A stretch of 37,171 nt of DNA from Clostridia bacterium (GTDB lineage Bacteria; Bacillota; Clostridia; Oscillospirales; Acutalibacteraceae), in assembly GCA_017416765.1 (NCBI GenBank), contig JAFQBE010000028.1:1-37171 (forward strand), written 5' to 3'. The notes below the pieces were generated by a model. The model was given only the letters and a program-made list of their open reading frames with translations. It was not told the DNA's origin and ran no database searches. Made by a program: the position numbers and the translations under genes. Below, piece after piece: positions 566 to 35,827 of the stretch (its first letter is position 1; each line of letters opens with the position of its first letter).

Positions 566-587
<22 letters not shown>

Positions 588-2023
588 TTAAAGTGTACGC
601 CACCTGTGACAACTATTTTGTCACTATGGATGTACACTTTATTTATATAAGTTTTAATCAGACGCGGAATATCATCAAAATTGATATTTTCGGCGTCTTT
701 TTTTATTTTGGCAGCAATTTGCTCTTTAGTAATATCTATTGGTACCTCTGAGCTGGTACTGACGATGTGTTCAAGTTCATCAATCTGCTGACGTAAATCG
801 TCTATTTCGTCACGCAGTTCCGGAAAATCAAGACCGTTTCGGATAGATTTAACACAGTTGCTCAACTGCGTCTTGAGTTTCTCAAGCTCCTGTTTTTGTT
901 CTTTTATGGGAGATTTGATTTTTTGCAGTTCGTTATATACCTGTTCGGCAGCTGAACTGTAATCCGCTTTTTTGAGATAATTAATAAGCTCATTTACAAT
1001 AGCAGTCTCAAGCTCATCGGCATTTACATTCTTTGCTTTACAGGTGCGTGTGCGGTATTTATTGCCACAGGCATAACAGCGACAAATTGAATTCTTGCCG
1101 TTTACTGTCGTGCGCCCGGTATAAGCTGCGCCGCATTCGCCGCACACAACAAGACCTGAAAGCAGATATGTATATTTTGCAGAGTTCTGCGCTCTTTTGT
1201 TGCTTTTCATTCTTTCTTGCACCCTTTCCCATGTTCTCATATCAATCAGAGGAGTAATAGCGTTTTCAATTCTGACAGCGTGCGGATTCGCTGCTCCGCC
1301 TGCCCACTTGCCCATATATTTAACCGTGCGCTTATTCCATGAATACACACCGATATACCGCTCATTTGTTAAAATCGAATGTAATGAATTTTTGCCGATA
1401 GGTCGCCCTCTTTTGCCTTTATAGCCCTGAGCGGCAAGCTTCTCAATTATCTGCTTATACGAACCGCCGTCTGCATACATTTCAAATATAGTTTTTACCG
1501 CTGCTGCTTCGTGCGTGTTTACAACATATTTTCCGTCAACAGCATCATAACCGAGCGGAGGATAACCGCCAAGGAATACACCTTGATTTGCTTTAACTGC
1601 AACACCGGCAATTGATTTTTGCCTTGTCTGTAAAACCATATGCTGACCTAAACCAACGTTGATAAGCTCTACAAGGAAATCGTTCGGATTTGAAAGGTCG
1701 CCGAGGTTTTCCGTTGCGCATATAACCTTAATTTTTAAAAGCTGCATTTCTTTTCGGAAATTAAACCAATCGGCAACATCACGAGAACCGCGTGAAATAT
1801 CGTAAATGACAACGCCTTCAAAATCTCTGCGTTGAGCGCCTTGCAAAAGCTGTTGAAATCCTTCACGCTGAGTATTTGTTCCGCTCCTTGCTTCGTCAAT
1901 AAATGTTGCTGTAATGGTATGGTTGTTTGCCTGACAGAATTTTATAATTGCGTCGAGCTGAGCGGCTATAGAATTTTCCGTTTGGTTTTCGGTGCTGTAC
2001 CGTGCGTATGCTGCTACTTTCAT
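566..2023 (-). CDS. Large serine recombinase (phage integrase)
   Basis: This enzyme should integrate and excise the prophage through a covalent serine-DNA intermediate. The N-terminal resolvase domain starts MKVAAYARYS, with Ser10 as nucleophile. A Recombinase domain follows (about 160-270), then a zinc ribbon with a CGECG...CYACG pattern (about 310-345), a coiled coil (about 380-430) and a C-terminal tail. The 485-residue length fits the family. I chose the ATG at 2023 because AGGAGG sits just upstream; a longer frame to 2083 adds 20 residues across promoter sequence. The gene points at attL, and its last codons are encoded by the att core and the tRNA gene, with stop TGA at 566-568. In circular phage DNA the frame would end differently (see findings). 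An excisionase (RDF) gene is not identified. Confidence 0.95.
589..641. repeat. Nested inverted repeats beside attL
   Basis: TAAAGTGTAC (589-598) is a perfect inverted match to GTACACTTTA (632-641). Inside lies a second perfect repeat, GTGACAA (606-612) / TTGTCAC (618-624). Both fall within the 3' end of the integrase gene and inside the phage arm of the attachment site. They could be recombinase or RDF binding sites, or a hairpin in the integrase mRNA. Confidence 0.45.
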
Positions 2024-2036
2024 AAAAAAAACATCC

Positions 2037-2099
2037 TCCTTTGGGTATGTTTGACAAACCCAAAGAAAGATGATAAAATACATATATCATCCTTTGGGG
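2037..2099. promoter_or_regulatory. Divergent promoter and operator-like region upstream of integrase
   Basis: On the plus strand, TTGACA (2051-2056) and TAAAAT (2074-2079) are 17 bp apart, pointing away from integrase. The -35 box sits in an inverted repeat, TTTGGGT (2040-2046) / ACCCAAA (2058-2064). A second repeat, GATGAT...ATCATC, surrounds the -10 box. CCTTTGGG occurs at both edges (about 2038 and 2091). The arrangement suggests a regulator that controls integrase and the divergent transcript together. Confidence 0.5.
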
Positions 2100-2241
2100 T
2101 TGCTGTTAGATTCATCCTTATTTGAGTTTGACTTTTGATTTATTTCTTTCGGTTCGTGGTTGTTTCGTTTGATGTATATCAAAGCTCCGTGTGGGTGGTA
2201 TTTGAAGCTCCGATGTTCCAGCATCGGGGCTTTTTTTATTT
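2086..2241 (+). ncRNA. Candidate small RNA between integrase and PH-domain gene
   Basis: A near-consensus plus-strand promoter (2051-2079) and a strong terminator (2206-2241) frame about 150 nt. The segment has no open frame with a ribosome-binding site; a 31-codon frame from the ATG at 2172 has no Shine-Dalgarno and runs through the terminator. Neighbouring genes on both sides are on the minus strand, so this promoter and terminator serve no obvious protein gene. It may be a regulatory RNA or a decayed gene leader. No RNA family is recognised. Confidence 0.3.
2206..2241 (+). terminator. Intrinsic terminator, plus strand
   Basis: A 10-bp stem, agctccgatg (2206-2215) with catcggggct (2222-2231) and one G-T pair, surrounds a 6-base loop. 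The T run starts at 2231. The T tract is only on the plus strand, opposite to both neighbouring genes. Confidence 0.7.
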
Positions 2242-2247
2242 TGTCAA

Positions 2248-2619
2248 TTAAAGAACGAGGTCGCTGATAAGCTTGCAGATTTTACCTATATCGGTATTGC
2301 CTGCAAATTCAAGTTTTACCTTGCCAAGACCGCTGAACCACAATTCAAGCTCGCTGTCCATATCAAGTACACCTGCTGTTTCAGTTGAAAAAGCCTGTAC
2401 CTTTGAAAACGGCAGAGAAGTAATATCCTTCTTTTTGCCTGTCATACCCTGAATATTTATTACAAATATTCTTTTGTTTGTGAACGCTACACCGTCTCTG
2501 ATAGATTTGTATGACGAAATAATCTGCTCACCATCTACAAGCAGCGGCATCAGCTCAGAGTTGAAAGCGTTGGGAGCTTCCTTGAGCTTTACAAATTCGG
2601 GGTTTTTGAAATCAATCAT
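2248..2619 (-). CDS. Bacterial PH-domain protein (bPH/YvbH-like)
   Basis: A single bacterial pleckstrin-homology domain fills the 123-residue protein. The pattern IRDGVAFTNKRIFVIN followed by a K-rich hairpin, ITSLPFSKVQAFS, and a repeated beta pattern to the end is typical of the YvbH/bPH_1 group. No signal peptide or membrane segment is seen, so it is cytosolic. Ligand and role are unknown; such genes are frequent in clostridial prophages. A GGAAT-type ribosome site lies upstream of the ATG, and a separate promoter lies at 2674-2702, so the gene can be expressed apart from the repressor operon, including in the lysogen. Confidence 0.75.
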   Translation of the reverse strand: MIDFKNPEFVKLKEAPNAFNSELMPLLVDGEQIISSYKSIRDGVAFTNKRIFVINIQGMTGKKKDITSLPFSKVQAFSTETAGVLDMDSELELWFSGLGKVKLEFAGNTDIGKICKLISDLVL

Positions 2620-2673
2620 TTTTTACAATTCCTTTCTGAAATATATTCGGCTTATTATTTGCAAAAAATAAAC

Positions 2674-2702
2674 CTTATACATATAATGTCGAAAAATGTA
2701 AA
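2674..2702 (-). promoter_or_regulatory. Probable promoter of the PH-domain gene
   Basis: Read on the minus strand, TTTACA (2702-2697) and TATAAG (2679-2674) are 17 bp apart, about 55 bases before the ATG. No operator of the repressor type overlaps it, so it may be active in the lysogen. Confidence 0.45.
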
Positions 2703-2719
2703 AAGTAACACAAAATTCT

Positions 2720-3244
2720 TTATTTCATGAAATTATTTCCCTTGTCCAAATTCTTTTTATACTGACAAGCTGCTGATGCATAGATTATGTCTTCATGTTG
2801 GCAACTTCCTAATTCGCTGCACAACTTATATTTACTGCAACATCCAAAAGATGCAAATTCAAAAGAATTGATAAAGAATTCGTTGAGAGCTTTTTTAAAT
2901 ACTTCGGAATTCTTTGCAAGCTCATAGAAATCGTTCAAAGCCATTCTGTAAAAATCTTCTGACTTAATCTTTTTGAACTCATAGTCAAGCCCATAATTGT
3001 CAAAAATACGTTTTGCAATAATATTGAAAGATATGTAATGCTCATCACCGGCTGTTTTAACACGGGCAAAGAAATGAGAAGCTGAACTCATATGATAAGC
3101 ATTGGGCTTTATAGATGACATAATGCTGCAATAGCTTGTGTGTTCAGCATTTTCCTGAAGTTTAAGAGTTGCTGATTGTAGATAATTTGGCTCTATCAAG
3201 TTCTTGACTGTTTCAAATACTTGCTCATCAAACATTGATAACAT
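2720..3244 (-). CDS. Cys-rich protein of unknown function, exonuclease partner
   Basis: This 174-residue protein is not assigned to a named family. It is mostly helical, with a C-terminal cluster of likely metal ligands: Cys135, Cys136, Cys142, Cys148, His150 and Cys160. The spacing suggests a zinc or iron-sulfur site. It overlaps the end of the exonuclease gene by 17 bases and is translated from the same message, so the two are probably functional partners. It probably also shares the repressor transcript, hence expression in the lysogen. The start is supported by an AAGGAG-type site about 11 bases upstream; a second ATG three codons in is possible. Confidence 0.7.
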   Translation of the reverse strand: MLSMFDEQVFETVKNLIEPNYLQSATLKLQENAEHTSYCSIMSSIKPNAYHMSSASHFFARVKTAGDEHYISFNIIAKRIFDNYGLDYEFKKIKSEDFYRMALNDFYELAKNSEVFKKALNEFFINSFEFASFGCCSKYKLCSELGSCQHEDIIYASAACQYKKNLDKGNNFMK

Positions 3245-4040
3245 AACGCTCTATCTCCTTTTGTGTAGGTTGCATCTCTTTTAAGAAATCAAGGGCTATG
3301 TCAATTTCTCTATCCTCAACCGATATTTTCACAACTGTCGGTTGTTCACTTACAAGCCCGATAAATTTGCACGGCAAAATCCGAGTTCCGCCAAGAGGTC
3401 GGCGATAATATAAAGGCTTCGGCTCATCGAATGTTTTCGGAGTTAAACCTAATTCTTTTTGGAGTTCAAGAGTTGAACACTCCGCATCCGAGAGGTCAAA
3501 CAAGCTGCTAAGCTCCACAGGCTTGTAGCTTTTAAGCGCCTGCAAACAATAATGAGTTGTTTCGCAGTCAGCTAAAGCTCGGTGTGCAACAGGCTGACTG
3601 ATACCTAATTCTTCTGCCACATCGCAAAGCCTATGATGTGACATACGAGGCATAAGATCTCTTGATATTTTAAGCGTATCTACATAGTCACTTTGTATAG
3701 CTTCTGCAAATTCTCCTAAACAACGGTTAACAAACCCAACATCAAAATTTACATTATGCCCTACAACGGTAGATGTACCAACAAATGAGCGGAACGCTTC
3801 AGCAACCTCGCAGATATCGGGAGCATTGGAAACCATTTCATTTGTGATTCCGGTAATTCTTTGCACGCTTTTGGGTATTTCCATACCAGGATTAACAAGC
3901 TGTTGATAACTGTCAACTATTTCACCGTTTTTTACTTTTAGAGCGGCAAGCTCGATAATTTTATCTGTACTTTGCAAGCCTGTTGTCTCAACATCTATTA
4001 CAACGTAATTATCGGGGAAATAAATATTTTCTCTTTTCAC
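3228..4040 (-). CDS. DnaQ-like 3'-5' exonuclease (DEDDh)
   Basis: Residues 10-170 form a DnaQ/epsilon exonuclease domain with all catalytic positions: Asp16 and Glu18 in VIDVETTG, Asp100 in GHNVNFD, His153 and Asp158 in HRALADCE. It should remove nucleotides from DNA or RNA 3' ends using two metal ions. The C-terminal 100 residues carry a small beta-rich domain of unknown role. The start is GTG at 4040 behind AGAGGGTG. It lies only 12 bp after the repressor stop, so it is in the repressor operon and should be made in lysogens. That argues for a role beyond lytic replication, for example nucleic-acid-targeting exclusion of other phages (inference). Confidence 0.88.
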   Translation of the reverse strand: MKRENIYFPDNYVVIDVETTGLQSTDKIIELAALKVKNGEIVDSYQQLVNPGMEIPKSVQRITGITNEMVSNAPDICEVAEAFRSFVGTSTVVGHNVNFDVGFVNRCLGEFAEAIQSDYVDTLKISRDLMPRMSHHRLCDVAEELGISQPVAHRALADCETTHYCLQALKSYKPVELSSLFDLSDAECSTLELQKELGLTPKTFDEPKPLYYRRPLGGTRILPCKFIGLVSEQPTVVKISVEDREIDIALDFLKEMQPTQKEIERYVINV

Positions 4041-4052
4041 ATTTACACCCTC

Positions 4053-4694
4053 TTACATATCAATAACAATTTGCTTTACAACGCCGATGATTTGAGCGGA
4101 ACCGTTCTCGAAATCTTCAACAGGAACAATGCGGTCGTCGTATGCGCTGTTTTCGGGCTTTAGCAGAACTACAGAGCCGTGATGCTTGAAACGCTTGAGC
4201 GTAGCTTCGTCACCGTTCACACGGCAAGCAACTATCTGACCGTCATCAGCAGTGTTTTGCTTATGTATAAGCACCTTGCAGCCGTCAACTATTCCTGCAC
4301 CAATCATGCTGTCGCCTTTTACCCTTAAATAGAAATATTCGTCCGGGTTCGGAACGGATGTTGGCATATACCCTTCAATACATTCATCAGCCAAAGCGGG
4401 AAGCCCAGCAGGAATACAACCATATATCGGGAGCATTCCAGTTACTGGGATAGCATTGCTTATTTCTTCTTGTGCCATTTTATCAGTTTTTAAGGCTAAC
4501 CAATTAGGATTTACTTTCAAAGCATCTGCAATGGCTTGTAATATTGGTAATTTTATTTTGGCTACCTTGCCGGATTCATAACGTTGTATAGTTGATTTAT
4601 TTACAGCAAGACTGGTTCCAAGTTCCTCTTGAGTTAATTGAAGCTGCTCTCTGCGATTTCTTATCCTCATACCTATACGTTCATTATCGGTCAA
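4053..4694 (-). CDS. LexA/CI-type phage repressor (HTH-XRE + S24 peptidase)
   Basis: The protein has 213 residues. Residues about 8-66 are an XRE helix-turn-helix (TQEELGTSLAVNKSTIQRYE). The C-terminal half is a LexA-like S24 self-cleavage domain with Ser129 (KGDSM), Lys167 (ATLKRF) and a probable Ala96-Gly97 cleavage bond in CIPAGLP. It should bind the operators around 4729-4829, repress the early promoter and be inactivated during the SOS response. I chose the TTG at 4694 because AGAGGTG lies 6 bases upstream and the HTH begins right after. An upstream extension to 4796 would read back through the operators. It leads an operon with the exonuclease. Confidence 0.95.
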   Translation of the reverse strand: MTDNERIGMRIRNRREQLQLTQEELGTSLAVNKSTIQRYESGKVAKIKLPILQAIADALKVNPNWLALKTDKMAQEEISNAIPVTGMLPIYGCIPAGLPALADECIEGYMPTSVPNPDEYFYLRVKGDSMIGAGIVDGCKVLIHKQNTADDGQIVACRVNGDEATLKRFKHHGSVVLLKPENSAYDDRIVPVEDFENGSAQIIGVVKQIVIDM

Positions 4695-4713
4695 GTCAAT
4701 CACCTCTGCGCAC

Positions 4714-4742
4714 AATATAACACAAAAAGTTGCAAATTGCAA
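4714..4742 (-). promoter_or_regulatory. Repressor promoter (PRM-like)
   Basis: On the minus strand, TTGCAA (4742-4737) and TATATT (4719-4714) are 17 bp apart. The -35 box lies inside operator O1 (4729-4743), so the repressor should control its own synthesis. Confidence 0.65.
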
Positions 4743-4829
4743 TAGATTTTTTATGAAATTCAAAAAAAGTTGCAAAACGCTATTGACAAAATGCAAATAC
4801 GGTGCTAAAGTTAAGTTGCAAAACGCAAC
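4729..4829. promoter_or_regulatory. Operators O1-O3 of the lysis-lysogeny switch
   Basis: Three related 15-mers are present: O1 GTTGCAAATTGCAAT (4729-4743), O2 GTTGCAAAACGCTAT (4769-4783) and O3 GTTGCAAAACGCAAC (4815-4829). O3 is a perfect GTTGC-N5-GCAAC palindrome. O1 covers the repressor -35, O2 abuts the early -35 and O3 lies just past the early -10. A fourth copy is at 5054-5068. Confidence 0.85.
4783..4811 (+). promoter_or_regulatory. Early lytic promoter (PR-like)
   Basis: TTGACA (4783-4788) and TAAAGT (4806-4811) are 17 bp apart. Operators O2 and O3 overlap or flank the boxes, as expected of the main repressed promoter. It drives the cro-like gene and the early operon. Confidence 0.75.
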
Positions 4830-4845
4830 AAGAGAGGTGAAACTA

Positions 4846-5082
4846 ATGGTTAACAGCGAAGCAATAAAAAAACGAATGGATACTTTAGATGTTGGTCAAG
4901 CTGACGGAGCAGAAGCGCTTGGTATCAAACAATCCACTTTTTGTTTAAAAATCAACAATAAGCGAGGTTTAACACTTGACGAAGCCAATGCTCTGGCTTC
5001 CTTCTTAAAAATTACTAACGATGAATTTCCGCATTATTTTTTTTACTCTGAAAGTTGCGAAACGCAACAAACCGCAAGCTAA
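4846..5082 (+). CDS. Cro-like HTH regulator
   Basis: This 78-residue protein consists almost wholly of a helix-turn-helix: VGQADGAEALGIKQSTFCLK is the HTH core, followed by the conserved NKRGLTLDEANALASFLKI. It is divergent from the repressor and first in the early operon, which is the position of Cro. The ATG at 4846 is preceded by AGAGAGGTG; a longer frame from 4753 would start before the promoter. Its last codons contain operator O4. It probably competes for the same operators to commit to the lytic path. Confidence 0.85.
   Translation: MVNSEAIKKRMDTLDVGQADGAEALGIKQSTFCLKINNKRGLTLDEANALASFLKITNDEFPHYFFYSESCETQQTAS
5054..5068. promoter_or_regulatory. Operator O4 inside the end of the cro-like gene
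   Basis: GTTGCGAAACGCAAC is a perfect GTTGC-N5-GCAAC palindrome with the same sequence as O3 except one spacer base. It lies about 240 bp downstream of the switch, within coding sequence. It suits DNA looping or a roadblock to early transcription. Confidence 0.75.
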
Positions 5083-5148
5083 ACTCTTGTTTATTTAGTA
5101 AATTTTCAAACACTCCCCACACAACCACGAACCGAAAGGAATGTTCCA

Positions 5149-5328
5149 ATGAAAGAAAAAAGGAAAATCGAATTTGATATCGGCTTTGACGATTCAAGAG
5201 AATCAGCCGAAAGAATTATTTACGGCATTTACGGTATGAGCGTTGAAGCGTTCGCCGATGCTCTACGCCGTGAAGCCGTTTTGAAATCCAAAAGCACCAC
5301 AAAACCAGCAGGAGGTGTCTGCGCATGA
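5149..5328 (+). CDS. Small early protein of unknown function (59 aa)
   Basis: The ATG follows GAAAGGA by 8 bases and the frame ends in an ATGA overlap with the next gene, so it is almost certainly translated. It is charged at the N-terminus (MKEKRKIEFDIGFDD), with one amphipathic helix (SVEAFADALRREAVLKS). No domain is recognised. It may be a small DNA-binding or adaptor protein of the early operon. Confidence 0.7.
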   Translation: MKEKRKIEFDIGFDDSRESAERIIYGIYGMSVEAFADALRREAVLKSKSTTKPAGGVCA

Positions 5329-5585
5329 CAGCAACAATAATTGAAATCGGGCTTGCCGCACTTGTGTTGGCAGGCATTATCAAAGAAGAAAAGCTCATTG
5401 CTTTTGAGGACAAGGTCCTTGATTCAATAGCAAACTCAATCGCAAAGGTTATAGTCGCCCGCCGCAGGCACGAGCTTGAAAAGGCAAGGCTCGCACCGAT
5501 GCCCGGCATCAAAGCCTTTGTCGCTCCCTGCCGCAGCGGCAAAGCCAACCTTACAAGCAGAGATTTTGAGATTAAAGGAGCATGA
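5325..5585 (+). CDS. Small membrane-anchored early protein
   Basis: The 86 residues begin with a hydrophobic stretch (IIEIGLAALVLAGII, about 5-19), probably one membrane helix. A basic region (VARRRHELEKARL) and a short C-terminal tail follow. It overlaps both neighbours by 4 bases (ATGA), so translation is coupled. No family recognised. Confidence 0.65.
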   Translation: MTATIIEIGLAALVLAGIIKEEKLIAFEDKVLDSIANSIAKVIVARRRHELEKARLAPMPGIKAFVAPCRSGKANLTSRDFEIKGA

Positions 5586-5587
5586 CA

Positions 5588-5920
5588 ATGAACATTATTG
5601 AAACCGCTATTCAGAAGATAGAAGCCCAGCAGGGCGCAAAGAACACAATGGTCTGGTGTGTTGGCGAACAGCTCAAGGATATATGCAGAGAAAGCGAACA
5701 CAACGCAGATATAGTTAGCACCGACTTGGATAACCCGAGCATGTCACTATTTAACTGTGAACGAAAAATTAAAAAATACGCAAGTGAGCATACAAATGGT
5801 GATTGCGGATGCTGTCCGCCCAACGTTGCTGATGAAATTATACGCAAATTCTACGGCATACCTGCCGCATCTGAAGCACCGACAAAGTCAAATGTACTTG
5901 ACCTGTCGGATTTCCTTTGA
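5588..5920 (+). CDS. PcfK-like protein (AcrIIA9-like family)
   Basis: The 110-residue helical protein resembles the PcfK family: a middle SLFNCERKIKKYA helix and a late PPNVADEIIRKFYGI segment match the usual pattern of a Cys-containing helix followed by a D/E-I-x-x-Y/F-Y motif. It sits directly before a PcfJ gene, the standard pairing. Members of this family have been reported as Cas9 inhibitors (AcrIIA9), but most relatives are untested. An ATG at 5582 is also in frame, but GGAG at 5577-5580 is correctly spaced only for 5588. Assignment rests on pattern and neighbourhood. Confidence 0.6.
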   Translation: MNIIETAIQKIEAQQGAKNTMVWCVGEQLKDICRESEHNADIVSTDLDNPSMSLFNCERKIKKYASEHTNGDCGCCPPNVADEIIRKFYGIPAASEAPTKSNVLDLSDFL

Positions 5921-5933
5921 GAGGTGAGCAGAT

Positions 5934-7628
5934 ATGTCAGAAACAAATTATGCAGATATGCTGCCTATTAAACCGCCGCAGGGCATTTTTGATATGGCTG
6001 AGCGGCACTGGAAAGATACAAACGCATTAGTTATGAATGTTGATTGGCTACGTGACCCCATAACCGAGCTTAAAAACAGAGCTGTTCATTGCCATTGCAC
6101 AGCTTGCAACGAAAGTTTTTATTGTGATTATACACCCGGCGGTACATGCTGCTTTTCACGGTCGCCATACGGATTTTTTAATTACAGAACAAACGAACAT
6201 GTCACCAGCTACAATAACACGCTGTGCCCTGAATGCGGCGCACCGGTAAAAGCTATAGCTATATCAGATATGTACAGTGACGGTCATCAACTCGGCTGTA
6301 AAACCTTCGTTGCCGTACAGAAAATTGAAAATAAATTATGCATTATATCATGGTGGTTACAAAAATCAGTAAATAAAAAAGGTGAAATATCAATCGAATC
6401 CCGTCCGCGTGAAGCTTACATTGCGGAAGGTAAAAAATTGATTAGAGTGGCAGGTTGCCAAAGGTATTTTTACAGTTATTCATACTACAACAAATGGGAA
6501 CCGCGCAAACGATACGACGATACACTTTGCGAAGTTGATGAAAATTTCATATTGCCGTTTGGTGAAGAAGTGCTTATCGGTACCGCCTGCGAAAACAGCA
6601 AGCTGGATATTTTTGCAAAAGGCAGCGACAGAATGATAGTAAGCTATCTTCGCCTTTGGCAGAAACACCCAAACATCGAAAACCTTGTAATGCAGGGGCA
6701 TAGCGACCTTGTGAATGAAGCTCTCACCACTGCAAAGGACTGTACAAAAGGTTATAACTATCGAAACTGGCGCGGCAGCACAAACACTGATGCTTTCGAT
6801 TTCAAAAAGGCAAGACCGCACGAAATGCTGAGACTATCTAAAGAGCAATACAGAGCCGTAGTGAAGAATAACCTCTCCCTTGCGCTTATACAGGATTTAG
6901 AACTCTATCATAAATATGATTGCAGAGTAACGGCAGACAACATAGAAAAAATAAGTAAAAATTTCAAATACCGCTACAGCGAATTTACAGAAACAGGCGA
7001 ATCATTAATTACAGCTTTTAATTATCTTGAGCGGCAAGAGAAAAAATACCCGGGTTTGAAATCACGCATCGAAGTCGAAACATTGCTCGACTACTGGGCG
7101 CTTTGCCAAGAGCGTGATATAGACTACGATGACCCCAAAAACAGATACCCTCAGAATCTTGTTGCAAAGCATGACCAGCTTGTTTCGCTGATTAAATTTG
7201 AAAAAAGCCAAGAACTGATTAAGAAATTCAAAGCCCGCTCGAAACAGCTTGCTCCGTTCGCCTTTGCAGACGAAGAAACCGGTCTGATGATTACCGCTTG
7301 TCCCGATGAGGAGCAGCTGATAAATGAAGGCGAAAAGCTCGACCATTGTGTTGCTACATATGCGGATAGCCATGCCGAAGGCAAAACAGCAATATTCTTT
7401 ATCCGCCACATTGATGCCCCGGGCACTCCGTTTTTTACACTTGAGCTTGATGAAAAAACTTACCGTGTAAGGCAAAACAGAGGAAGCCATAACTGCGCTC
7501 GAACACCTGAGGTTAAAGCATTTGAGGAAAAGTGGCTTGCATACCTCAAAACAAACAACATCGGAAAGGAAGTCAAAAAGAATGGAAAACGCAATCGTAA
7601 ATCAGAACTCACAGCAGCTGTCGCATGA
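5934..7628 (+). CDS. PcfJ-like protein
   Basis: The 564-residue protein has an N-terminal zinc-binding part (CHCTACNESFYC, later CPECG, about residues 50-105), a long helical middle and the conserved PcfJ C-terminal domain. That domain shows the HCVATYADSHAEGKTAIFF signature, then FFTLEL and VRQNRGSHN motifs (about 475-545). PcfJ was named from the conjugative plasmid pCF10, and its biochemical role is unknown. It is common in early regions of Firmicute prophages next to PcfK. GAGAGGTG precedes the ATG. It overlaps the next gene by 47 bases. Confidence 0.85.
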   Translation: MSETNYADMLPIKPPQGIFDMAERHWKDTNALVMNVDWLRDPITELKNRAVHCHCTACNESFYCDYTPGGTCCFSRSPYGFFNYRTNEHVTSYNNTLCPECGAPVKAIAISDMYSDGHQLGCKTFVAVQKIENKLCIISWWLQKSVNKKGEISIESRPREAYIAEGKKLIRVAGCQRYFYSYSYYNKWEPRKRYDDTLCEVDENFILPFGEEVLIGTACENSKLDIFAKGSDRMIVSYLRLWQKHPNIENLVMQGHSDLVNEALTTAKDCTKGYNYRNWRGSTNTDAFDFKKARPHEMLRLSKEQYRAVVKNNLSLALIQDLELYHKYDCRVTADNIEKISKNFKYRYSEFTETGESLITAFNYLERQEKKYPGLKSRIEVETLLDYWALCQERDIDYDDPKNRYPQNLVAKHDQLVSLIKFEKSQELIKKFKARSKQLAPFAFADEETGLMITACPDEEQLINEGEKLDHCVATYADSHAEGKTAIFFIRHIDAPGTPFFTLELDEKTYRVRQNRGSHNCARTPEVKAFEEKWLAYLKTNNIGKEVKKNGKRNRKSELTAAVA

Positions 7629-8598: not shown

Positions 8599-8599
8599 T

Positions 8600-9137: not shown

Positions 9138-9182
9138 GTGTGAAAGACACCGTACAAACCTTCGCTTTACGAAACCAATAAA

Positions 9183-9389: not shown

Positions 9390-9402
9390 GAGCTTTTTAT
9401 AT

Positions 9403-12354: not shown

Positions 12355-12370
12355 AGCAGGAGTTGATTAA

Positions 12371-13297: not shown

Positions 13298-13309
13298 GGA
13301 GGAGTGCTT

Positions 13310-13762: not shown

Positions 13763-13769
13763 AAACTTT

Positions 13770-13823: not shown

Positions 13824-13863
13824 AGCCGCTTTCCTTTAGCTTTTATCAAATGAGGTGAGCGGC

Positions 13864-26811: not shown

Positions 26812-26819
26812 TTATTAAT

Positions 26820-27842: not shown

Positions 27843-27853
27843 GGAGGCTGCAT

Positions 27854-29308: not shown

Positions 29309-29321
29309 GAGGTAAATAACA

Positions 29322-31127
29322 ATGGCTGATATATCAAAAATTAAAATCGGGGACGAAGAATACTCGATTAAGGACGAAAAAAGGCACGGACACGAAAACA
29401 AAGATGTTCTTGACCTTATCACCAAAGGCGAACACGGCAATTTAACACTTGACGGTGCTATACATTGGAGCGTGGCAAACGGTGGAGTTATCGAGAACAT
29501 TGAAACAGACGAAACAACAGGCGATATAACACTATTAGTGCGATATGTGCCAAACCCTGCAATACCTGCCGAAGAAATAAAAATCAAGCAATCGCTTGAT
29601 ATACCCGAAGTAAACAACATAACACCCGAACAGACAACATTTTTTGAGTTTGCACCTTCAAGCAACCTTTTAGACTTTTCAACAAAACAGGTTGGTTTGC
29701 TTAACAATGACGGCAAAATATATACAGGCGGAAGCTATGACAATTACCGTTATTTTGAACAGTATATTCCTGTTGATGTGGGTGACGAAATATCGTTGCA
29801 ATATACATATAACGGTACGAGATATAATTATTCTGTTACCAACAATGCTGCAATTTTTTCAAGAGTTGCAGCCTATGACTCAAACAAACAGATATTAAAA
29901 ACATTGGGTGCGATTACCAACTCAACAAATAAAGTTACGGTATATACTGTTCCCGAAACAGTTGCATATATCCGAATATCATTGAGTAATAACTGCGACA
30001 GTTGGACAGATATAGCGGTTGTTAAAAATACATCGGTTGTTTTACCCTATGAGGAATACGGAACAAATTCAAAGGTACAGTTGAAGTCGGAATACATACC
30101 CGAAAAGAAAAACAAGGTATTGGCATTTATGCCTGATGAAATTATTTGTGCAACAGGCAGAACTATTGAGATATACAACAATCAGATTTGTCCGTTGGCT
30201 GAAAAATATTACTTCCGTTGGGTGTGTGATATTGGCAAGGCTTTAAAGCGAAAATTCAGCATTACAGGAACAGAAGATTTAATCGGTGATTACGATTTAA
30301 TTCTTGAAATTTATGACGATACAGAAACTTGTCTGTATTCAAAAACGAGCAAATTAAAAATAGTCACAGGAACAATAGCGGATAATGTTTCTATCTGCCC
30401 GATTGGTGACAGCTTGACAAATGGCAAGCATTGGCTGAATGAGGTGCGAACACTTTCCGAAAACAAAGTTTCTTATGTCGGCACAAGAGGAAACACAGAG
30501 GGTGTGAAGCACGAGGGCAGAAGCGGATTCACAAGCAAAGGATATTTAACAGCACAAACTTACGACTTTGAAAATGAGGGTGTTCACCCATTTTGGGACG
30601 GCTCAAAATTTTCTTGGAGTCATTACAAAACAAACAGCGGTATCAATCCGTCAGCTGTTCAAATATTCTTGGGAACAAATGACCTGTTTGGAAACACAAC
30701 CGCCGAAACATTCAGCGGAAATATTAAAACTATGGTTGACGATATCCGTTCAACAGACGCAAATATTCCTATATTTGTTGTTATGACAATTTTAACAGGC
30801 AATCAAAACGGACTTGGCAAACAGCAGTCAACAGACGGTTTCGCATCATACAAAGGTAAATATAAATATGCTTTGGATTGTAAGTTTATCAAAGCAATGA
30901 ACCTTTTATATGACACATTAAAAGATTATTCAAACCTTTACTTTGTACCGCTTACAGAATGTCACGATAATGAATATAATTTCGGTGCGGTTGAAACTCC
31001 TGTAAATCCGAGGGCAACACAAACGGAATATATGCCGAATGAGGGCATACATCCGCAACAGCAAGGATATGAACAAATGGCAGATGTTATGTACAGCGTC
31101 TATTGCCGTGCGTTTATATCACAGTAA
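29322..31127 (+). CDS. Tail fibre with C-terminal SGNH/GDSL hydrolase
   Basis: The 601-residue protein opens with the fibre motif GHENKDVLDLITKGEHG (about 26-43), continues with a beta domain (about 95-240), and ends in an SGNH hydrolase (about 355-601). Visible motifs are IGDSLTNG with Ser364, the GTND block at 451-454 and NEGIHP with His577. The usual Asp three residues before His is Glu574. The domain probably deacylates cell-surface polysaccharide to help adsorption. Confidence 0.85.
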   Translation: MADISKIKIGDEEYSIKDEKRHGHENKDVLDLITKGEHGNLTLDGAIHWSVANGGVIENIETDETTGDITLLVRYVPNPAIPAEEIKIKQSLDIPEVNNITPEQTTFFEFAPSSNLLDFSTKQVGLLNNDGKIYTGGSYDNYRYFEQYIPVDVGDEISLQYTYNGTRYNYSVTNNAAIFSRVAAYDSNKQILKTLGAITNSTNKVTVYTVPETVAYIRISLSNNCDSWTDIAVVKNTSVVLPYEEYGTNSKVQLKSEYIPEKKNKVLAFMPDEIICATGRTIEIYNNQICPLAEKYYFRWVCDIGKALKRKFSITGTEDLIGDYDLILEIYDDTETCLYSKTSKLKIVTGTIADNVSICPIGDSLTNGKHWLNEVRTLSENKVSYVGTRGNTEGVKHEGRSGFTSKGYLTAQTYDFENEGVHPFWDGSKFSWSHYKTNSGINPSAVQIFLGTNDLFGNTTAETFSGNIKTMVDDIRSTDANIPIFVVMTILTGNQNGLGKQQSTDGFASYKGKYKYALDCKFIKAMNLLYDTLKDYSNLYFVPLTECHDNEYNFGAVETPVNPRATQTEYMPNEGIHPQQQGYEQMADVMYSVYCRAFISQ

Positions 31128-31142
31128 CAGTGAGGTAACACA

Positions 31143-31241
31143 ATGATACATTTTCTTTTAATCGTAGAAATCTACATTAAGCTGCTGTTTACATACTCCC
31201 CAGCAGAGCTGATACAGCTGATTGCGGAGGTGTGGTTTTAA
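31143..31241 (+). CDS. Very small hydrophobic protein (32 aa)
   Basis: GTGAGG precedes the ATG, and the TAA directly abuts the next ATG. The peptide (MIHFLLIVEIYIKLLFTYSP...) is short and hydrophobic at the N-terminus. It has the size and place of the XkdX-type peptides found between fibre and lysis genes. Its existence as a protein is inferred from spacing only. Confidence 0.5.
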   Translation: MIHFLLIVEIYIKLLFTYSPAELIQLIAEVWF

Positions 31242-31484
31242 ATGGCTACAGAAATAATAACCGCCCTTATTGCGCTAATTGGTTCATTGGGCGGCACATT
31301 CGGCGGTATATTGGTAAGCTCCAAGCTGACAAACTACCGCATTGAACAGCTTGAAAAAAAGGTTGAAAAGCATAATCAGGTCATTGACCGAGTGTATAAG
31401 CTCGAACGCGCCGACGAGGTTGAGGAAGAAAAAATCAAGGTTATCAATCACAGAATTGACGACCTTGAACAGTACCACAAGTGA
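31242..31484 (+). CDS. XhlA-like small membrane protein
   Basis: The 80-residue protein has an N-terminal membrane helix (IITALIALIGSLGGTFGGILV) followed by a charged coiled coil (YRIEQLEKKVEKHNQVIDRV). This is the hemolysin XhlA / phage lysis-accessory type, though in B. subtilis XhlA the helix is at the C-terminus. It lies in the lysis block and probably works with the holin. Confidence 0.7.
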   Translation: MATEIITALIALIGSLGGTFGGILVSSKLTNYRIEQLEKKVEKHNQVIDRVYKLERADEVEEEKIKVINHRIDDLEQYHK

Positions 31485-31493
31485 GGTTGCTGC

Positions 31494-31709
31494 ATGAAGT
31501 TTTCAAAAAAATGCGTTATCGCAATGTTTCTTTCCATACATATATTCACCATGCTTATGGTGGTTGCGTTCTTCGTAAAAGGCGATGTACCTGAAGCGTT
31601 GATTGTGCCGTTCTTCGCCTTTTGGGGCGCAGAAGGCACGGCAATGGCATGGATAAAAAACTGTAAAACCAAAAAGAAAAATTCTGAATCAAAGGAGAAG
31701 AAAAAATGA
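31494..31709 (+). CDS. Small two-helix membrane protein, holin-like
   Basis: The 71 residues contain two membrane helices (about 7-28 and 35-54) and a strongly basic tail (KTKKKNSESKEKKK), the usual topology of a small holin. It overlaps the next gene by 4 bases (ATGA). It could be a holin, co-holin or antiholin. Confidence 0.6.
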   Translation: MKFSKKCVIAMFLSIHIFTMLMVVAFFVKGDVPEALIVPFFAFWGAEGTAMAWIKNCKTKKKNSESKEKKK

Positions 31710-32104
31710 ACGATGTAAAGGAATTCCTAATTGTGTTTATTCTGTTTTTTGCGGCATTTATGATTGTATTTGCCGCGCTTGCAATTGCCCGATATACTTT
31801 CACAAAGCAGGGCAAGGAAACCGATGCGCTCGATGCGGCGCAGGACTACGCTATGAAGATACTGTCGCAGGTTGGTTTGCTTCTTTTTACCGACGCAGAA
31901 AAGACCTTCGGCGGCGGTACGGGCGCGCTGAAGCTCTCGGCGGTCATGGACAAGCTGATTGCAAAGCTGCCCCCAAGGGTTGTTGAACTGATTGATAGAG
32001 AATGGCTGACTGAGCAGGTCGAGCTTGCGCTGAAACGCGCCAAAGATAAATGGCAGAGTAACCCTGCGCTGCTCAATGAGGAAGGTGCAGACAATGGCGG
32101 TTAA
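31706..32104 (+). CDS. Phage holin, LL-H type
   Basis: The 132-residue protein has one N-terminal membrane helix (about 6-28), then a cytoplasmic helical domain (AQDYAMKILSQVGLLLFTDAE) characteristic of the LL-H holin family. It should form membrane lesions that release or activate the endolysin. It ends inside the start of the endolysin gene. Confidence 0.75.
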   Translation: MNDVKEFLIVFILFFAAFMIVFAALAIARYTFTKQGKETDALDAAQDYAMKILSQVGLLLFTDAEKTFGGGTGALKLSAVMDKLIAKLPPRVVELIDREWLTEQVELALKRAKDKWQSNPALLNEEGADNGG

Positions 32105-32816
32105 GAAATATCCGAAGGGCAGCAAAACCAAGCTGTCAAAGAATTTTAAAGCGTATGAGTTTGATTGCAAGGGCAAGGGCTGTTGTACCGAAACGCTGAT
32201 TGATGAAGATTTCGTAAAAAACAAGCTGCAGATGATTGCAGACCATTATGGCAAAGCAACAATTGTCAATTGCGGATATCGCTGCCCGGTACATAATGCA
32301 AACGTCAAAAATGCATCCAAAAACTCCAAACACATGCAGGGAATCGCTTTTGATATCCGTGTTCCCGGTGTAACTCCCATTGAGGTTGCACAATACGCTG
32401 AAAGCATCGGCATTAAAGGTATCGGCTTGTATGATACATTCGTACACGTTGACGGAAGATCGTCGAAATGCTTTTGGAAAGGTCACAGTCAGATTAAAGT
32501 ATCAACCTTCGGCGCAAAGAAGAAAAACACTGCCGTTCAGAAGTGGCAGACCGCCGCACGCAAAGACGGTTTTGACATTAGCGCAGATGGTATATGGGGC
32601 AAAGAATCCGAAGCTGCCGCCAAAAAGGCTGTATGCAAAAAGGGCTGTGCATATTCCAACCTGACGAAAATTATCCAGTCTGCTGTCGGTGTGAAGGCTG
32701 ACGGCAAATTCGGCGATAACACCCGCACCGCCGTAAAAGCATGGCAGAAACAGCACAACCTCACCCCCGACGGCATTTTCGGTCTGAAATCGTGGAAAAC
32801 CCTGCTCGGGGTGTAA
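32094..32816 (+). CDS. Endolysin: M15 peptidase with two peptidoglycan-binding repeats
   Basis: Residues about 10-130 are a peptidase M15A domain with zinc ligands His80 and Asp87 (SKHMQGIAFDIR) and His118 (FVHVDGR). It should cut cell-wall peptide cross-links. Two PG_binding_1-type repeats follow (about 150-190 and 195-240), each with an ADGIWG/ADGKFG/PDGIFG-type motif. No signal peptide, so export depends on the holin. ATG 32094 overlaps the holin end by 11 bases. Confidence 0.93.
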   Translation: MAVKKYPKGSKTKLSKNFKAYEFDCKGKGCCTETLIDEDFVKNKLQMIADHYGKATIVNCGYRCPVHNANVKNASKNSKHMQGIAFDIRVPGVTPIEVAQYAESIGIKGIGLYDTFVHVDGRSSKCFWKGHSQIKVSTFGAKKKNTAVQKWQTAARKDGFDISADGIWGKESEAAAKKAVCKKGCAYSNLTKIIQSAVGVKADGKFGDNTRTAVKAWQKQHNLTPDGIFGLKSWKTLLGV

Positions 32817-32837
32817 AAATTAAATATCGATAAGTTC

Positions 32838-32881
32838 AAAGCCGCTCACTTCCAATCAAAACGGAAATGGGCGGCTTTTTT
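32838..32881 (+). terminator. Terminator of the late operon
   Basis: The outer stem aaagccgc / gcggcttt (32838-32845, 32871-32878) and inner ttcc / ggaa arms are followed by a run of T. It ends the structural-lysis transcript and separates it from the convergent moron gene. Confidence 0.8.
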
Positions 32882-32882
32882 G

Positions 32883-33758
32883 TTATTCTTTTTCTTCTTT
32901 GGGTTTAGTAGCTTCAGTATATAGCGCTTTTTGTTTTTGGATATTTTTTTCTATTTTATTCGCCGAAACTTCTAAAGTAATACAGCGAATCCTCTGTGCT
33001 GTTAGACCAGCGAATAATTCATTTGTCATATCATCTATATGGTCAAAAAAAGGTTTTTGCTTGCTTAATATTCTACATTCAAATTCGCGAGAAATATCAT
33101 AGTCTGATATTTCAAACGGGAAAGTAAATTCTTTCTGAAATGTATCTAAAATATAATCATGCACCTGTTCAATAACTTCTTTATATTCTTCTTCACCAAA
33201 AGTCTCTTTTGAACATATTTTTATAAAATTTTTATCAAGAGCATCACAATCCAACTTGAATTGTGATACTATTTTAGGAATATCTTTATTGATTTGTTTG
33301 GAAATTTTATCAAAACGTTTTGATGTAAAGTTAATATTTTCATAAAAGTTATTAAAATCAGTTATGGACTCAGCTAATAATTTTATTGATTCGCAGTCAT
33401 CATCAATGTTGTCTATAGATTCTATATGCATTAAAAAGTATAGATTTATAAGTGCTTTTTTTGTGATAACTTCAAAACTTTTTTTCGTTTCACTTTTTTC
33501 TTTCAAAAACGGAACTAATATTGCCAAAAATGAAATCAAAGCACTCGCGGCTATACCTAAACAAAGATTTATAAAATAATCTTGATGACATAAAAAATTA
33601 ATCTTTCCAAATTCAGCTAAAGCACTTAACAGAAAAGCTAAAAAAGCCACCACTAAAAGAGTAATCATCGCTTTATATTGTAAAGCTGTTGCCGTACCTT
33701 TTTTGACACGGATCAATTTTTCGTTTTGGGCTTTGATTAGTTTAATGATTTTTTTCAT
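32883..33758 (-). CDS. Two-TM membrane protein of unknown function (moron)
   Basis: The 291 residues hold two membrane helices (about 32-52 and 64-85) and a large cytoplasmic helical part (about 90-280), ending in a charged tail (EATKPKEEKE). No enzyme motif is visible. The gene is opposite to the late operon, outside the core phage genes and AT-rich. It carries its own upstream element, so it is likely expressed in the lysogen. Superinfection exclusion or host modification is a guess from position and topology. ATG 33758 has GAGGTG 6 bases upstream. Confidence 0.7.
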   Translation of the reverse strand: MKKIIKLIKAQNEKLIRVKKGTATALQYKAMITLLVVAFLAFLLSALAEFGKINFLCHQDYFINLCLGIAASALISFLAILVPFLKEKSETKKSFEVITKKALINLYFLMHIESIDNIDDDCESIKLLAESITDFNNFYENINFTSKRFDKISKQINKDIPKIVSQFKLDCDALDKNFIKICSKETFGEEEYKEVIEQVHDYILDTFQKEFTFPFEISDYDISREFECRILSKQKPFFDHIDDMTNELFAGLTAQRIRCITLEVSANKIEKNIQKQKALYTEATKPKEEKE

Positions 33759-33778
33759 ATCTTTCACCTCATTACTAT

Positions 33779-33810
33779 AATGACAAAAAGCATCAAAAAG
33801 TTACACAAAA
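33779..33810 (-). promoter_or_regulatory. ECF-type promoter-like element facing the 2-TM gene
   Basis: On the minus strand the element reads TTTTGTGTAACTTTTTGATG and continues to a GTCATT box. It is a 25-of-32 match to 34150-34181 on the other strand. GTAAC plus a GTC-type box about 15 bases on is the general shape of ECF sigma promoters. The site lies 20-50 bases before the 2-TM gene start. Confidence 0.4.
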
Positions 33811-33811
33811 T

Positions 33812-33840
33812 TTGCATTTTTTACAAATAAAGCATATAAT
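33812..33840 (+). promoter_or_regulatory. Sigma-A promoter of the truncated sigma-factor gene
   Basis: TTGCAT (33812-33817) and TATAAT (33835-33840) are 17 bp apart, with a perfect -10 box. The predicted transcript starts about 25 bases before the ATG at 33873. Confidence 0.65.
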
Positions 33841-33872
33841 TGTTCATATCAAGTGAAAAGAGGTTCTATTAT

Positions 33873-34100
33873 ATGCACGATTTGAGAGCAAAATATACTA
33901 AAATTTGGGATGAAAATGCAGAAACACTCCGCAAATATTGCCGTTCGAAGCTACAAAAATACAATAACGAAACAGAAGATATAATAACAGAAGTTTTTAC
34001 TTTGCTTTGGGAAAAGATAAAAACCGACGGTGTACCCGCCGAGCCTAAAGCGTGGATTTATGCAATACTTTCTTTGGGTGTTCGCACATCCACGCTATGA
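33873..34100 (+). CDS. Truncated ECF sigma-70 factor (region 2 only)
   Basis: The 75 residues match the start of an ECF-type sigma factor: KYCRSKLQKYNNETEDIITE is region 2.1-2.2, and VFTLLWEKIKTDGVPAEPKAWIYAI is the core-binding/-10 region. After PKAWIYAIL the sequence turns to SLGVRTSTL and stops, so the rest of region 2 and all of region 4 are missing. No continuation is visible in the next 280 bases in any frame. It is probably a remnant, but with an intact promoter and start a short core-binding decoy is conceivable. GAGG lies about 10 bases before the ATG. Confidence 0.6.
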   Translation: MHDLRAKYTKIWDENAETLRKYCRSKLQKYNNETEDIITEVFTLLWEKIKTDGVPAEPKAWIYAILSLGVRTSTL

Positions 34101-34149
34101 TGTAATTTATATATAGCGCAAAATGTGAATATTTTATGAATTTTTTTGC

Positions 34150-34181
34150 TTTTGCGTAACTTTTGGGTTGTTTCTGACATT
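34150..34181 (+). promoter_or_regulatory. ECF-type promoter-like element facing the membrane cassette
   Basis: The element reads TTTTGCGTAACTTTTGGGTT and continues to a TGACATT box. It is the inverted partner of 33779-33810 (25 of 32 positions agree). The two copies point outwards from the truncated sigma gene. This could be a regulon signal, or the ends of a small mobile segment. Confidence 0.4.
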
Positions 34182-34302
34182 TATTATATTATGTAAAAAT
34201 AAATTGCAACAAAAATTGTGATTTTTATTGTTGTTTTCAACAAAAAAATCCACTAAAAACATATGAAATGAATATTTTTTGAACAAAATATTAATAACCA
34301 TA

Positions 34303-34331
34303 TTGATTTTTTTCTATGAAAAGTGTACACT
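34303..34331 (+). promoter_or_regulatory. Promoter of the three-gene membrane cassette
   Basis: TTGATT and TACACT with exact 17-bp spacing lie about 50 bases before ATG 34379. No phage operator overlaps them, so the cassette is probably expressed in the lysogen. Confidence 0.6.
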
Positions 34332-34378
34332 AGCATCGAAGAATTGATGAAATCCGACACAAGGGTTGTGATATTGTA

Positions 34379-34789
34379 ATGGCATCAAAATCGCTGTTAA
34401 GTAGTACTTTGTCTTTAAGTTTTTTTATCGCTGCATATGCATCTTATATATCAGCAATTATTGAGCAGAATAGTAGTTGGATAGTAGTCTCTGCGTTAAT
34501 CTACTTTATTCCGATGTTTGTGAATTTTGTTGATGATTTCCAGAATGTAAAGATTCATAAGAAAAGTCACTTGATTTTTCTTATAGCATGTTTAATTTTG
34601 GGATTCATATATGTGGCTTTTCTCGTAAGCTATATTTCCGCTTTTGGTTCTGCGGAACAGGGAGTACCAATTATTGTAAAGGTTTTACTTATAGTTTTAC
34701 CTGTTGTTTGTATCCCTTTGAAAGCTTATCCGTTCATAGTAACTGTTATGCAAATTTTTAATCGTACTGTTGACACATTGTCAAAGTAA
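34379..34789 (+). CDS. Four-TM membrane protein of unknown function
   Basis: The 136 residues contain four predicted membrane helices (about 9-27, 35-51, 63-87, 98-125) with short loops and a small basic loop (NVKIHKKSH). No known family is recognised. It leads a three-gene set (34379-35695) with its own promoter and a common terminator. The ribosome site is weak (AAGGG, about 15 bases upstream). Position beside attR suggests cargo rather than core phage function. Confidence 0.65.
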   Translation: MASKSLLSSTLSLSFFIAAYASYISAIIEQNSSWIVVSALIYFIPMFVNFVDDFQNVKIHKKSHLIFLIACLILGFIYVAFLVSYISAFGSAEQGVPIIVKVLLIVLPVVCIPLKAYPFIVTVMQIFNRTVDTLSK

Positions 34790-34812
34790 CTAGAATGTAA
34801 GGATATTTTTTT

Positions 34813-35037
34813 ATGAATAACTATTTAATCATTGCTATATCGAGTATTGCTGTTTTAAGTGCTTTGTCTATTACAGCTATTATTGCTTATCGTCGCGTTA
34901 TAAAGGATACTAAAACATATGCTAGAACAAAGCCGCATAATGGTGATATTCTATTAGATGATATTTGTCCTAAATATTTGAAATTAACAAATGTTGACAA
35001 AGGAACGGATGACGTAAATGAACAAAGCAACGCTTGA
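34813..35037 (+). CDS. Single-TM small protein of the membrane cassette
   Basis: The 74 residues have an N-terminal membrane helix (LIIAISSIAVLSALSITAIIAY) and a soluble tail with a PHNGDILLDDICPKYLKL segment. AAGGA lies upstream, and it overlaps the next gene by 20 bases, so they are co-translated. It may anchor the downstream soluble protein at the membrane. Function unknown. Confidence 0.6.
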   Translation: MNNYLIIAISSIAVLSALSITAIIAYRRVIKDTKTYARTKPHNGDILLDDICPKYLKLTNVDKGTDDVNEQSNA

Positions 35038-35695
35038 TATTATTTGGGATAAATTGGTTATTCCTACCTATAATCATATGCAGTTTAAAGTTGGCGGACT
35101 TATATGTCCAGAATGTGGAAAAGATGAATTACATGAGCATTACGAAGATATTGTAAAGTATGCGAAGAAACATTATATGTTTGATGAAAATGGCGTGCTT
35201 AATAGGCATAAGATAGCAGCTGCTTTGATGATTGCAATCTTAAAAACTAAACCGATAAAAAAAATAAATGCCGCATATTATCAGGAAGATATCAACGGCA
35301 AAATGATTCATTGGCCTTTCAATGAATCATTAGCTATTACTGTTGGCTTATCTGTTTTACGTGCTTTTATAATTGCCAGAGTTGATTATGCTTTTTCGGG
35401 GAAATTAATTTCCAAGCAGATATTCGAAGATGTAACCGAAGAGGATACTAAAATTTTTAGTGACGGAATTCCTATTAGCGAACAAGAGCGAGCCGAATGG
35501 GAATGGGAACTTTATCAAATTAGACTAGACGGTTCATACAATTTGTTAGCGATTGCGCATATATTGAAAGAAATTGAAAAGAATTGCAAATTAGAATACT
35601 TTTGGTCTACTAAAAAAACCCCCACTTATCCTGATCCAACAAATCTTACTGAAGATGCAATAGAATTGATTTCTTTAGACGAAATAATGCAATAA
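35018..35695 (+). CDS. Cytosolic protein of the membrane cassette, unknown function
   Basis: The 225-residue protein opens with a helix, then a CPECG-type half zinc motif followed by HEHYEDIVKYAKKHYMFDEN. Next is RHKIAAALMIAILKTKPI, and then a long helical region (ESLAITVGLSVLRAFIIARV). The His/Asp spacing is vaguely HD-like, but no complete HD signature is present, so I do not assign it. It is the only soluble member of the cassette and the best candidate for an effector. A terminator follows at 35705-35737. Confidence 0.65.
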   Translation: MNKATLDIIWDKLVIPTYNHMQFKVGGLICPECGKDELHEHYEDIVKYAKKHYMFDENGVLNRHKIAAALMIAILKTKPIKKINAAYYQEDINGKMIHWPFNESLAITVGLSVLRAFIIARVDYAFSGKLISKQIFEDVTEEDTKIFSDGIPISEQERAEWEWELYQIRLDGSYNLLAIAHILKEIEKNCKLEYFWSTKKTPTYPDPTNLTEDAIELISLDEIMQ

Positions 35696-35704
35696 CGATA
35701 ATTC

Positions 35705-35740
35705 AAAGCATAGTGTGTTTTCGCTATGCTTTTTGATTTT
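35705..35740 (+). terminator. Terminator of the membrane cassette
   Basis: The stem aaagcatag (35705-35713) pairs with ctatgcttt (35724-35732), followed by ttttgattttt. It closes the last phage operon just before attR. Confidence 0.7.
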
Positions 35741-35811
35741 TAAACGATACTTTTTTCTTTTCGGCATCTTTTGTAGTTATTATTGTGAAAAAATGTGAAC
35801 ATTACATATTG

Positions 35812-35827
35812 CCCATCTCCGCAACCA
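35812..35827. repeat. attR core (direct repeat of attL)
   Basis: This is an identical copy of the 16-bp core at 572-587 and marks the right prophage end. Phage DNA ends at 35811. The bases after the core are the natural continuation of the tRNA gene, namely its terminator. Fusing the two ends reconstructs an uninterrupted tRNA-fMet plus terminator as attB. Confidence 0.9.

Follow-up and report, generated by a model that had tools for sequence, protein, structure and literature searches.

The window analysed here, the whole 37,171 nt of contig JAFQBE010000028.1 from a Clostridia bacterium of the Acutalibacteraceae (assembly GCA_017416765.1), carries a prophage whose phage attachment site (attP) almost certainly lies within its own serine integrase gene (int), such that the integrase has one C-terminus in the circular phage and another in the lysogen. 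As read from the sequence, this switch of integrase ends is secure for the phage in the window, and it leads on to a C-terminal switch found across a family of such integrases. The features concerned are as follows (window coordinates):

566–2023, minus strand: large serine integrase in its prophage form, 485 amino acids (aa) ending ...HFNGCGDGI, with Pfam domains
510–587, plus strand: host tRNA-Met (cat), the attachment target, the antisense of which gives the last codon and TGA of the prophage-form integrase
566–568, minus strand: TGA stop of the prophage-form integrase, antisense of the tRNA T-loop T-C-A
572–587: attachment core at the tRNA/int junction
35812–35827: attachment core at the far junction
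576–577, second copy at 35816–35817: centre of the attP dyad and likely crossover dinucleotide (GA in the int sense), judging from the palindrome profile
35740–35811, minus strand: 23-residue integrase tail QYVMFTFFHNNNYKRCRKEKSIV plus TAA, once joined to the core in the circle

The prophage lies at the 3′ end of tRNA-Met, on one contig of a 2.77-Mb assembly. The window contains exactly two copies of its 16-bp core, CCCATCTCCGCAACCA (572–587 and 35812–35827), and none was present in 100 shuffles, even with two mismatches allowed. When position 35811 is joined to the core, as in the reconstructed circle, the int frame continues as GDG-QYVMFTFFHNNNYKRCRKEKSIV to 507 aa, with its stop codon at 35742–35740, and the first part of the tail-coding stretch is the right half of attP. 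In the prophage, the stop codon met at the left attachment site (attL), the TGA which we take from tRNA numbering to lie opposite T-loop residues T-C-A, shortens the integrase. The tail so lost is strongly basic (KRCRKEK) and ends KRCRKEKSIV. Regarding the other end of the protein, the open reading frame (ORF) caller placed the start at ATG 2083 (505 aa), while alignment favours ATG 2023 as the better fit to the start of the relatives. The excised circle itself was not seen, given that a 1621-base probe of the locus had one match in assembly G000, the integrated copy.

The gene spanning the core encodes a serine integrase and not a repressor. It carries the Pfam domains Resolvase, Recombinase, and Zn_ribbon_recom in a single protein, all above curated cut-offs, and the prophage form retains all three. 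The prophage is that of a tailed phage, with four of the ten ORFs searched in PHROGs corresponding to terminase, portal, major head, and tape-measure proteins. The target tRNA presumably resembles an initiator tRNA, based on a C1-A72 mismatch and three G-C pairs in the anticodon stem. A preliminary description of the window, made from the sequence alone, had given the integrase stop, the core, the two protein lengths, the letters of the tail, and their coordinates, all of which were reproduced on recomputation; its placement of attP inside int, with a different C-terminus in each state, was likewise correct and holds for a family of relatives as a whole.

The closest integrase relatives found are ~46–56% identical and derive mostly from Oscillospiraceae, other clostridial genomes, and viral contigs (by record names), while the phage records held distant relatives only, all 667 being below 60% identity. 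Of the 296 distinct serine-recombinase ORFs collected, 157 have, somewhere in their final 300 nt, an antisense match of 11 or more bases to the 3′ end of a tRNA. These divide into 88 classed as integrated, since they run into the tRNA, and 69 that do not, seven of which later proved integrated by their ends. Fifteen of the 69 were dropped (the tandem junction L010, a score <250, or a core-to-stop distance outside 10–45 codons), including seven clearly integrated by their ...RI or ...GGGT ends. The remaining 54, together with four reconstructed forms (the window, G422, and elements A and B of G092), make up the set of 58 attP forms, 45 of which are Met-type. Two further forms, L092 and L134, were reconstructed later and stand outside the 58; neither has a terminal alanine (Ala). 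The far end of the element was not found for G696, G594, G603, G413, G616, and G521, nor for G274, G291, and G303, the contigs of which stop within 4.3 kb. By record names, integrated copies occur in Rhodovulum (L141) and Dongia (L143), and thus in proteobacteria as well as clostridia.

The integrated forms end in peptides encoded by the antisense of a tRNA, such as ...GCGGRI, ...GFEPTTFGL, and ...VNSRVLHH. The TGA lies antisense to the T-loop for ends read in the GCGGRI frame, and antisense to the tRNA-Met anticodon loop for those read in the FGL frame. Three loci (L081, L216, and L123) lack the T-loop stop in the integrase frame, which continues across the antisense of the tRNA (GCGGRTRTYDLRV...), apparently due to a G replacing an A in the T-loop. 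The frame of L123 runs for ~565 codons from the start of the match. We did note that prophage integrase ends such as GFEPTTFGL and RFELATFGL (L185, L189, L324, and others) are annotation traps.

The preliminary description had proposed comparing homologues for the extra tail, and such tails do recur in the attP forms of relatives, including near-identical integrases found with either end. Up to the core, L080 and L104 share 98.1% identity across 1949 nt; past it, L080, which has no tRNA, reads GGPQLILCATFDNAMV, and L104 enters tRNA-Met and ends GGRI. Similarly, L135 and L128 match at 98.1% across 4408 nt, followed by a free tail in the one and antisense tRNA-Asn in the other. By protein identity, the pairs showing both ends stand at 99.4, 99.0, 96.5 (L184/L185), 95.8 (L213/L195), and 85.1% (L283/L107). 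These pairs and the wider set of relatives led us to reject a tail unique to the phage in the window. In G092, a single tRNA-Met holds a head-to-tail pair of elements that differ in their integrases (C12:132697–208250; L047–L049 and L065–L067), element A at 132697–166455 and element B at 166455–208250, and the integrase of element A takes its C-terminus, LQPVATTTDL, from the far end of element B, the neighbour of the tRNA, in place of its own LQPIICATFHKTA. The LQPVATTTDL end (L010/L084) was considered as an attP end and rejected, because the frame of the first integrase there runs into the end of the adjacent element.

The attP site itself appears to be built across the 3′ end of the gene. 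Across the 45 Met-type sites, which include the window (its own repeat is imperfect), the inverted-repeat match of the attP arms was 14.07 of 27 at the centre, compared to 5.0–8.4 at 16 other offsets, a profile of inverted half-sites about a central dinucleotide as in large serine recombinases. High-match blocks occupy positions 2–7 (except 3) and 13–22 from the centre, and the outer block is missing in 64 attL sites (≤0.38 per position). Because the blocks span both arms in attP and the outer one is gone in attL, the ~27 nt (nine codons) at the start of the tail are, on this profile, an attP half-site. Residues shared among the tails (L/P-Q-P/Y...C-T) can therefore follow from the DNA alone, and the likeness of tails among relatives was rejected as sole proof of selection on the protein. 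The first ~9 residues of the tail are thus set at least partly by the attP palindrome, and the "extra tail" of the preliminary description is best read from these sequences as the native end of the integrase, with the prophage form as the substitute.

Given that the palindrome can explain the first nine codons, we counted substitutions beyond codon nine as well as over entire tails, in twelve close pairs (11 of equal length; L360/L361 differ in length). Entire tails showed 6 synonymous changes per 14.7 sites and 1 nonsynonymous per 36.3 in L093/L094, 5 per 20.3 and 1 per 51.7 in L298/L309, and 7 per 19.2 and 7 per 52.8 in L302/L303. Past the first nine codons the counts were 5/7.0 synonymous versus 1/17.0 nonsynonymous (L093/L094) and 5/14.3 versus 1/30.7 (L298/L309), and in these three pairs the synonymous excess was absent from the two other frames. 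Pairs reusing loci gave, in the same order, 6/19.8 and 4/52.2 (L298/L302), 8/20.0 and 10/52.0 (L298/L304), and 8/19.3 and 12/52.7 (L303/L306); the diverged pair L087/L099 gave 5.8/9.5 and 15.2/32.5. The tails of L304/L306 and of L463/L465 are identical, and L463/L464 differ by one change of each kind. Against selection on the protein, L184/L213 show 2/8.0 synonymous and 2/25.0 nonsynonymous changes, too few to be informative, and L298/L309 and L302/L303 come from one clade. Overall, the codon pattern suggests that within the family the tail is very probably selected as protein.

The most distinct feature of these tails is a terminal Ala, found in 29 of the 58 attP forms in frame and in 3/58 and 5/58 in the other two frames, and two terminal Ala residues end 15/58 in frame, with 1/58 and 0/58 in the others. 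By locus, the in-frame excess over out-of-frame readings (8/116) is significant (Fisher 2e-10), as it is with one representative per clade at 60% identity (19/38 versus 2/38 and 3/38, or 5/76; Fisher 3e-7). A single integrated form out of 88 ends in Ala. From position −1 to −5, Ala occurs in 29, 16, 5, 3, and 1 of the 58, the excess at −2 shrinking to 6/38 by clade, and lysine or arginine occupies −3 to −5 in 18, 21, and 23. The distance from the core to the Ala end varies among attP forms, examples of which end YHTAA (G422) and AIAA (L093).

We propose that attP forms part of the 3′ end of int, its left half-site lying in the last codons before the crossover and its right half-site being read as codons 1 to ~9 of the native C-terminal tail. 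Only the circular phage would yield the integrase in full, with its native end, and integration would swap the tail for an end encoded by the antisense of the host tRNA, which in the window would be a single residue followed by the TGA from the conserved T-loop. Across the family, the native tail would be both read and selected as protein, most likely as a short C-terminal proteolysis signal, or degron (ssrA-like ...LAA, ...RVA, ...KTA). Since the Ala ends resemble ssrA-type degrons, integration would strip this signal from the integrase, leaving it short-lived in the incoming or replicating phage and stable in the lysogen. ClpXP or a like protease may read the tail, and the SIV-ended tail in the window may act likewise through another motif. 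We lean towards this explanation as a whole, attP within int together with a native tail that serves the family as a proteolysis signal, and regard a degron in the family as fairly probable. Of the readings considered, a degron has the most support for those members, half of the family, that end in Ala; for the phage in the window, where it is drawn by analogy, a degron is possible although somewhat doubtful. The effect on protein stability raised in the preliminary description is accordingly backed by the conserved tails of relatives, half of them Ala-ended and ssrA-like, and not by the tail in the window, which lacks the Ala signature.

Several points weigh against a degron. Half of the attP forms (29/58) have no terminal Ala, and the SIV end in the window is no ssrA-like -AA tag. 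The tail of L092, PQCVLFTIPVYLVGQMLKISRTK after GCGG, ends SRTK. This locus, the integrase frame of which is broken upstream, shares the C-terminal motif of the window by eye (ITGGV...GCG) at 52% overall identity, not above L080 or L002, and its tail resembles that in the window in length, in a common Q..V[LM]FT stretch, and in being basic near the end. The tail of L134 ends SKKN, and one Met-type clade mixes TAA (G422) and KTA (G092A) with IHS (L002), AMV (L080), and MMR (L283). The Ala pattern was also seen before being tested, and loci fetched afterwards (L333 on) gave a weaker result on their own (9/23 versus 2/23 and 4/23, or 6/46; p = 0.027), with two of those 23 (L351 and L359) in the same clade as earlier loci. 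Ala is also the last residue of 258 of the 1705 long ORFs from the same contigs, a set that includes spurious ones, and of 12 of the 62 serine-recombinase ORFs in which no tRNA core was recognised, some of which are probably unrecognised attP forms.

Int may instead simply run into the adjoining attP, the tail being whatever the arm and the next bases happen to encode, without function. That the right attP arm mirrors the left, and so can supply the common residues, is in keeping with such a passive overlap, as is the lack of an Ala end in the window. We consider it unlikely nonetheless, given the synonymous excess that extends past the first nine codons, the restriction of Ala to one frame and to the last two positions, and the short tails of like length (9–36 codons, sd 5.4, compared to 0–231 codons in the other frames, a contrast partly due to the rule that kept 10–45 codons from core to stop). 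The tail could also act in recombination itself, through synapsis or the response to a directionality factor, with the phage form favouring attP and the bacterial attachment site (attB) as substrates and the prophage form favouring excision. It directly follows the C-terminal domain of the serine integrase, and basic residues near tail ends, in particular the KRCRKEK in the window, would suit DNA contact. The strongest common feature, however, is a terminal Ala, better suited to proteolysis, and the prophage end is anything between a single residue and complete read-through of the antisense tRNA, so variable that no defined prophage form seems required. We regard a recombination role as distinctly unlikely.

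Selection could also act on RNA and leave the protein change incidental: in the circle the int message would end at its own hairpin, and in the lysogen it would cross the tRNA in antisense and enter host DNA. Two hairpins lie near the far core:

35705–35732, plus strand: hairpin just past the attP-form stop, terminator-like on the plus strand for the convergent ORF 35018–35695
35828–35855, plus strand: terminator hairpin directly after the far core

Using mononucleotide shuffles, a stable hairpin (z < −2) directly follows the attP-form stop in 27% of 56 loci, compared to 16% of 58 at 60 nt before the stop, 16% and 5% of 55 at 60 and 120 nt further on, and 13% of 53 integrated loci just past the tRNA; the hairpin in the window has a z of −3.5. 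This enrichment is modest, however, with 10 of the 15 loci at z < −2 being of clostridial type by our own grouping, and the hairpin in the window has no T run in the int sense, its T run serving the other strand only. As selection on the tail residues would also be left unexplained, we think an RNA-level effect very unlikely.

Joining the flanks of the prophage restores an intact tRNA-Met with the 35828–35855 terminator hairpin directly after it, meaning that the prophage sits between the tRNA and its own terminator, which now lies ~35 kb away. Transcription of tRNA-Met would now enter the antisense of int, the terminator being beyond the whole prophage. A short inverted repeat with a T run was seen by eye 3′ of the tRNA in five of seven congener loci (L031, L033, L034, L036, and L038), a count in which L037 and L039 offered no sequence context. 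Just downstream of the tRNA, within the 3′ coding end of int, lies a 7-bp hairpin (606–624, GTGACAA-CTATT-TTGTCAC), which might have a role in tRNA 3′ processing or termination. Elsewhere in the window, a 294-aa ORF without a PHROG match near the far end of the prophage (32883–33767, minus strand) is a possible cargo gene, and a host ORF past the far core (36299–37015) resembles a serine/threonine protein kinase, by eye from HRDIKPENV, which we take to be a kinase motif.

The serine integrases of A118, phiC31, and Bxb1 have the same domains and an attP with dyad-symmetric arms. The attachment sites of ordinary phage serine integrases usually lie outside int, in protein genes, whereas the phage in the window uses the 3′ end of a tRNA as attB and has an attP that overlaps int. 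Removal of a repressor tag by integration was reportedly described by Broussard in 2013, work cited in mycobacteriophage papers on the subject. In those phages, going by the excerpts of the literature cited here and below, attP lies in the repressor gene and integration removes an ssrA-like repressor tag, and the integrases carry degradation tags of their own (PMC4557955, PMC8092301, PMC9635641). The attachment sites of mycobacterial Int-S again usually lie outside int, in protein genes (PMC8092301). The same tag removal is reported for the repressor of a Bifidobacterium tRNA-Met prophage (PMC6109161).

Such integration-dependent immunity (BPs, clusters G, I, N, and P, and M. abscessus prophages) resembles the system described here in having attP within a coding gene with a longer viral form, a stop at attL, a tail lost on integration, and an attB that is sometimes a tRNA 3′ end (PMC9934374, PMC8092301, PMC4557955). 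The viral repressor tail often ends -AA, as do 15/58 family tails, although not that in the window. Tandem integration in mycobacteriophages reshuffles repressor ends, like the integrase ends in G092, and in tandem M. abscessus prophages the frames at the core decide the fate of the repressor (PMC9934374). The systems differ in that integration-dependent immunity acts through a switched repressor, alongside an integrase of the tyrosine recombinase type, while here the serine integrase itself is switched; the excerpts do not mention removal by integration of the C-terminal signal of the mycobacteriophage integrase (PMC9934374, PMC8092301, PMC4557955). The suicidal integrases of the archaeal SSV type likewise have their attachment site inside int and are altered by integration, but they belong to the tyrosine recombinases and integration breaks them into two halves, both inactive, whereas the serine recombinase keeps all its domains and changes its tail only (PMC8371274). 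In the open-licence PMC literature, as excerpted, we saw no serine integrase with an end or degron switched by integration, which is weak evidence of absence.

If the proposed explanation is true, many serine integrases, a class used in genome engineering, are known from bacterial genomes in their substitute form, their open frames ending in antisense-tRNA peptides (GCGGRI, GFEPTTFGL) and their native C-terminus lost. It would also explain how a phage could make its integrase short-lived in infection and still have it at hand when the prophage excises, through an "integration-dependent integrase" switch parallel to integration-dependent immunity. In its broadest form, which we judge to be evenly balanced, widespread tRNA-targeting serine integrases would use their own attP to remove an integrase degron, independently of integration-dependent immunity, with the stop of the stable form supplied by near-invariant tRNA residues (the T-loop T-C-A or, in another frame, U33 and the CA of the Met anticodon), such that the half-life of the integrase would report the state of integration.

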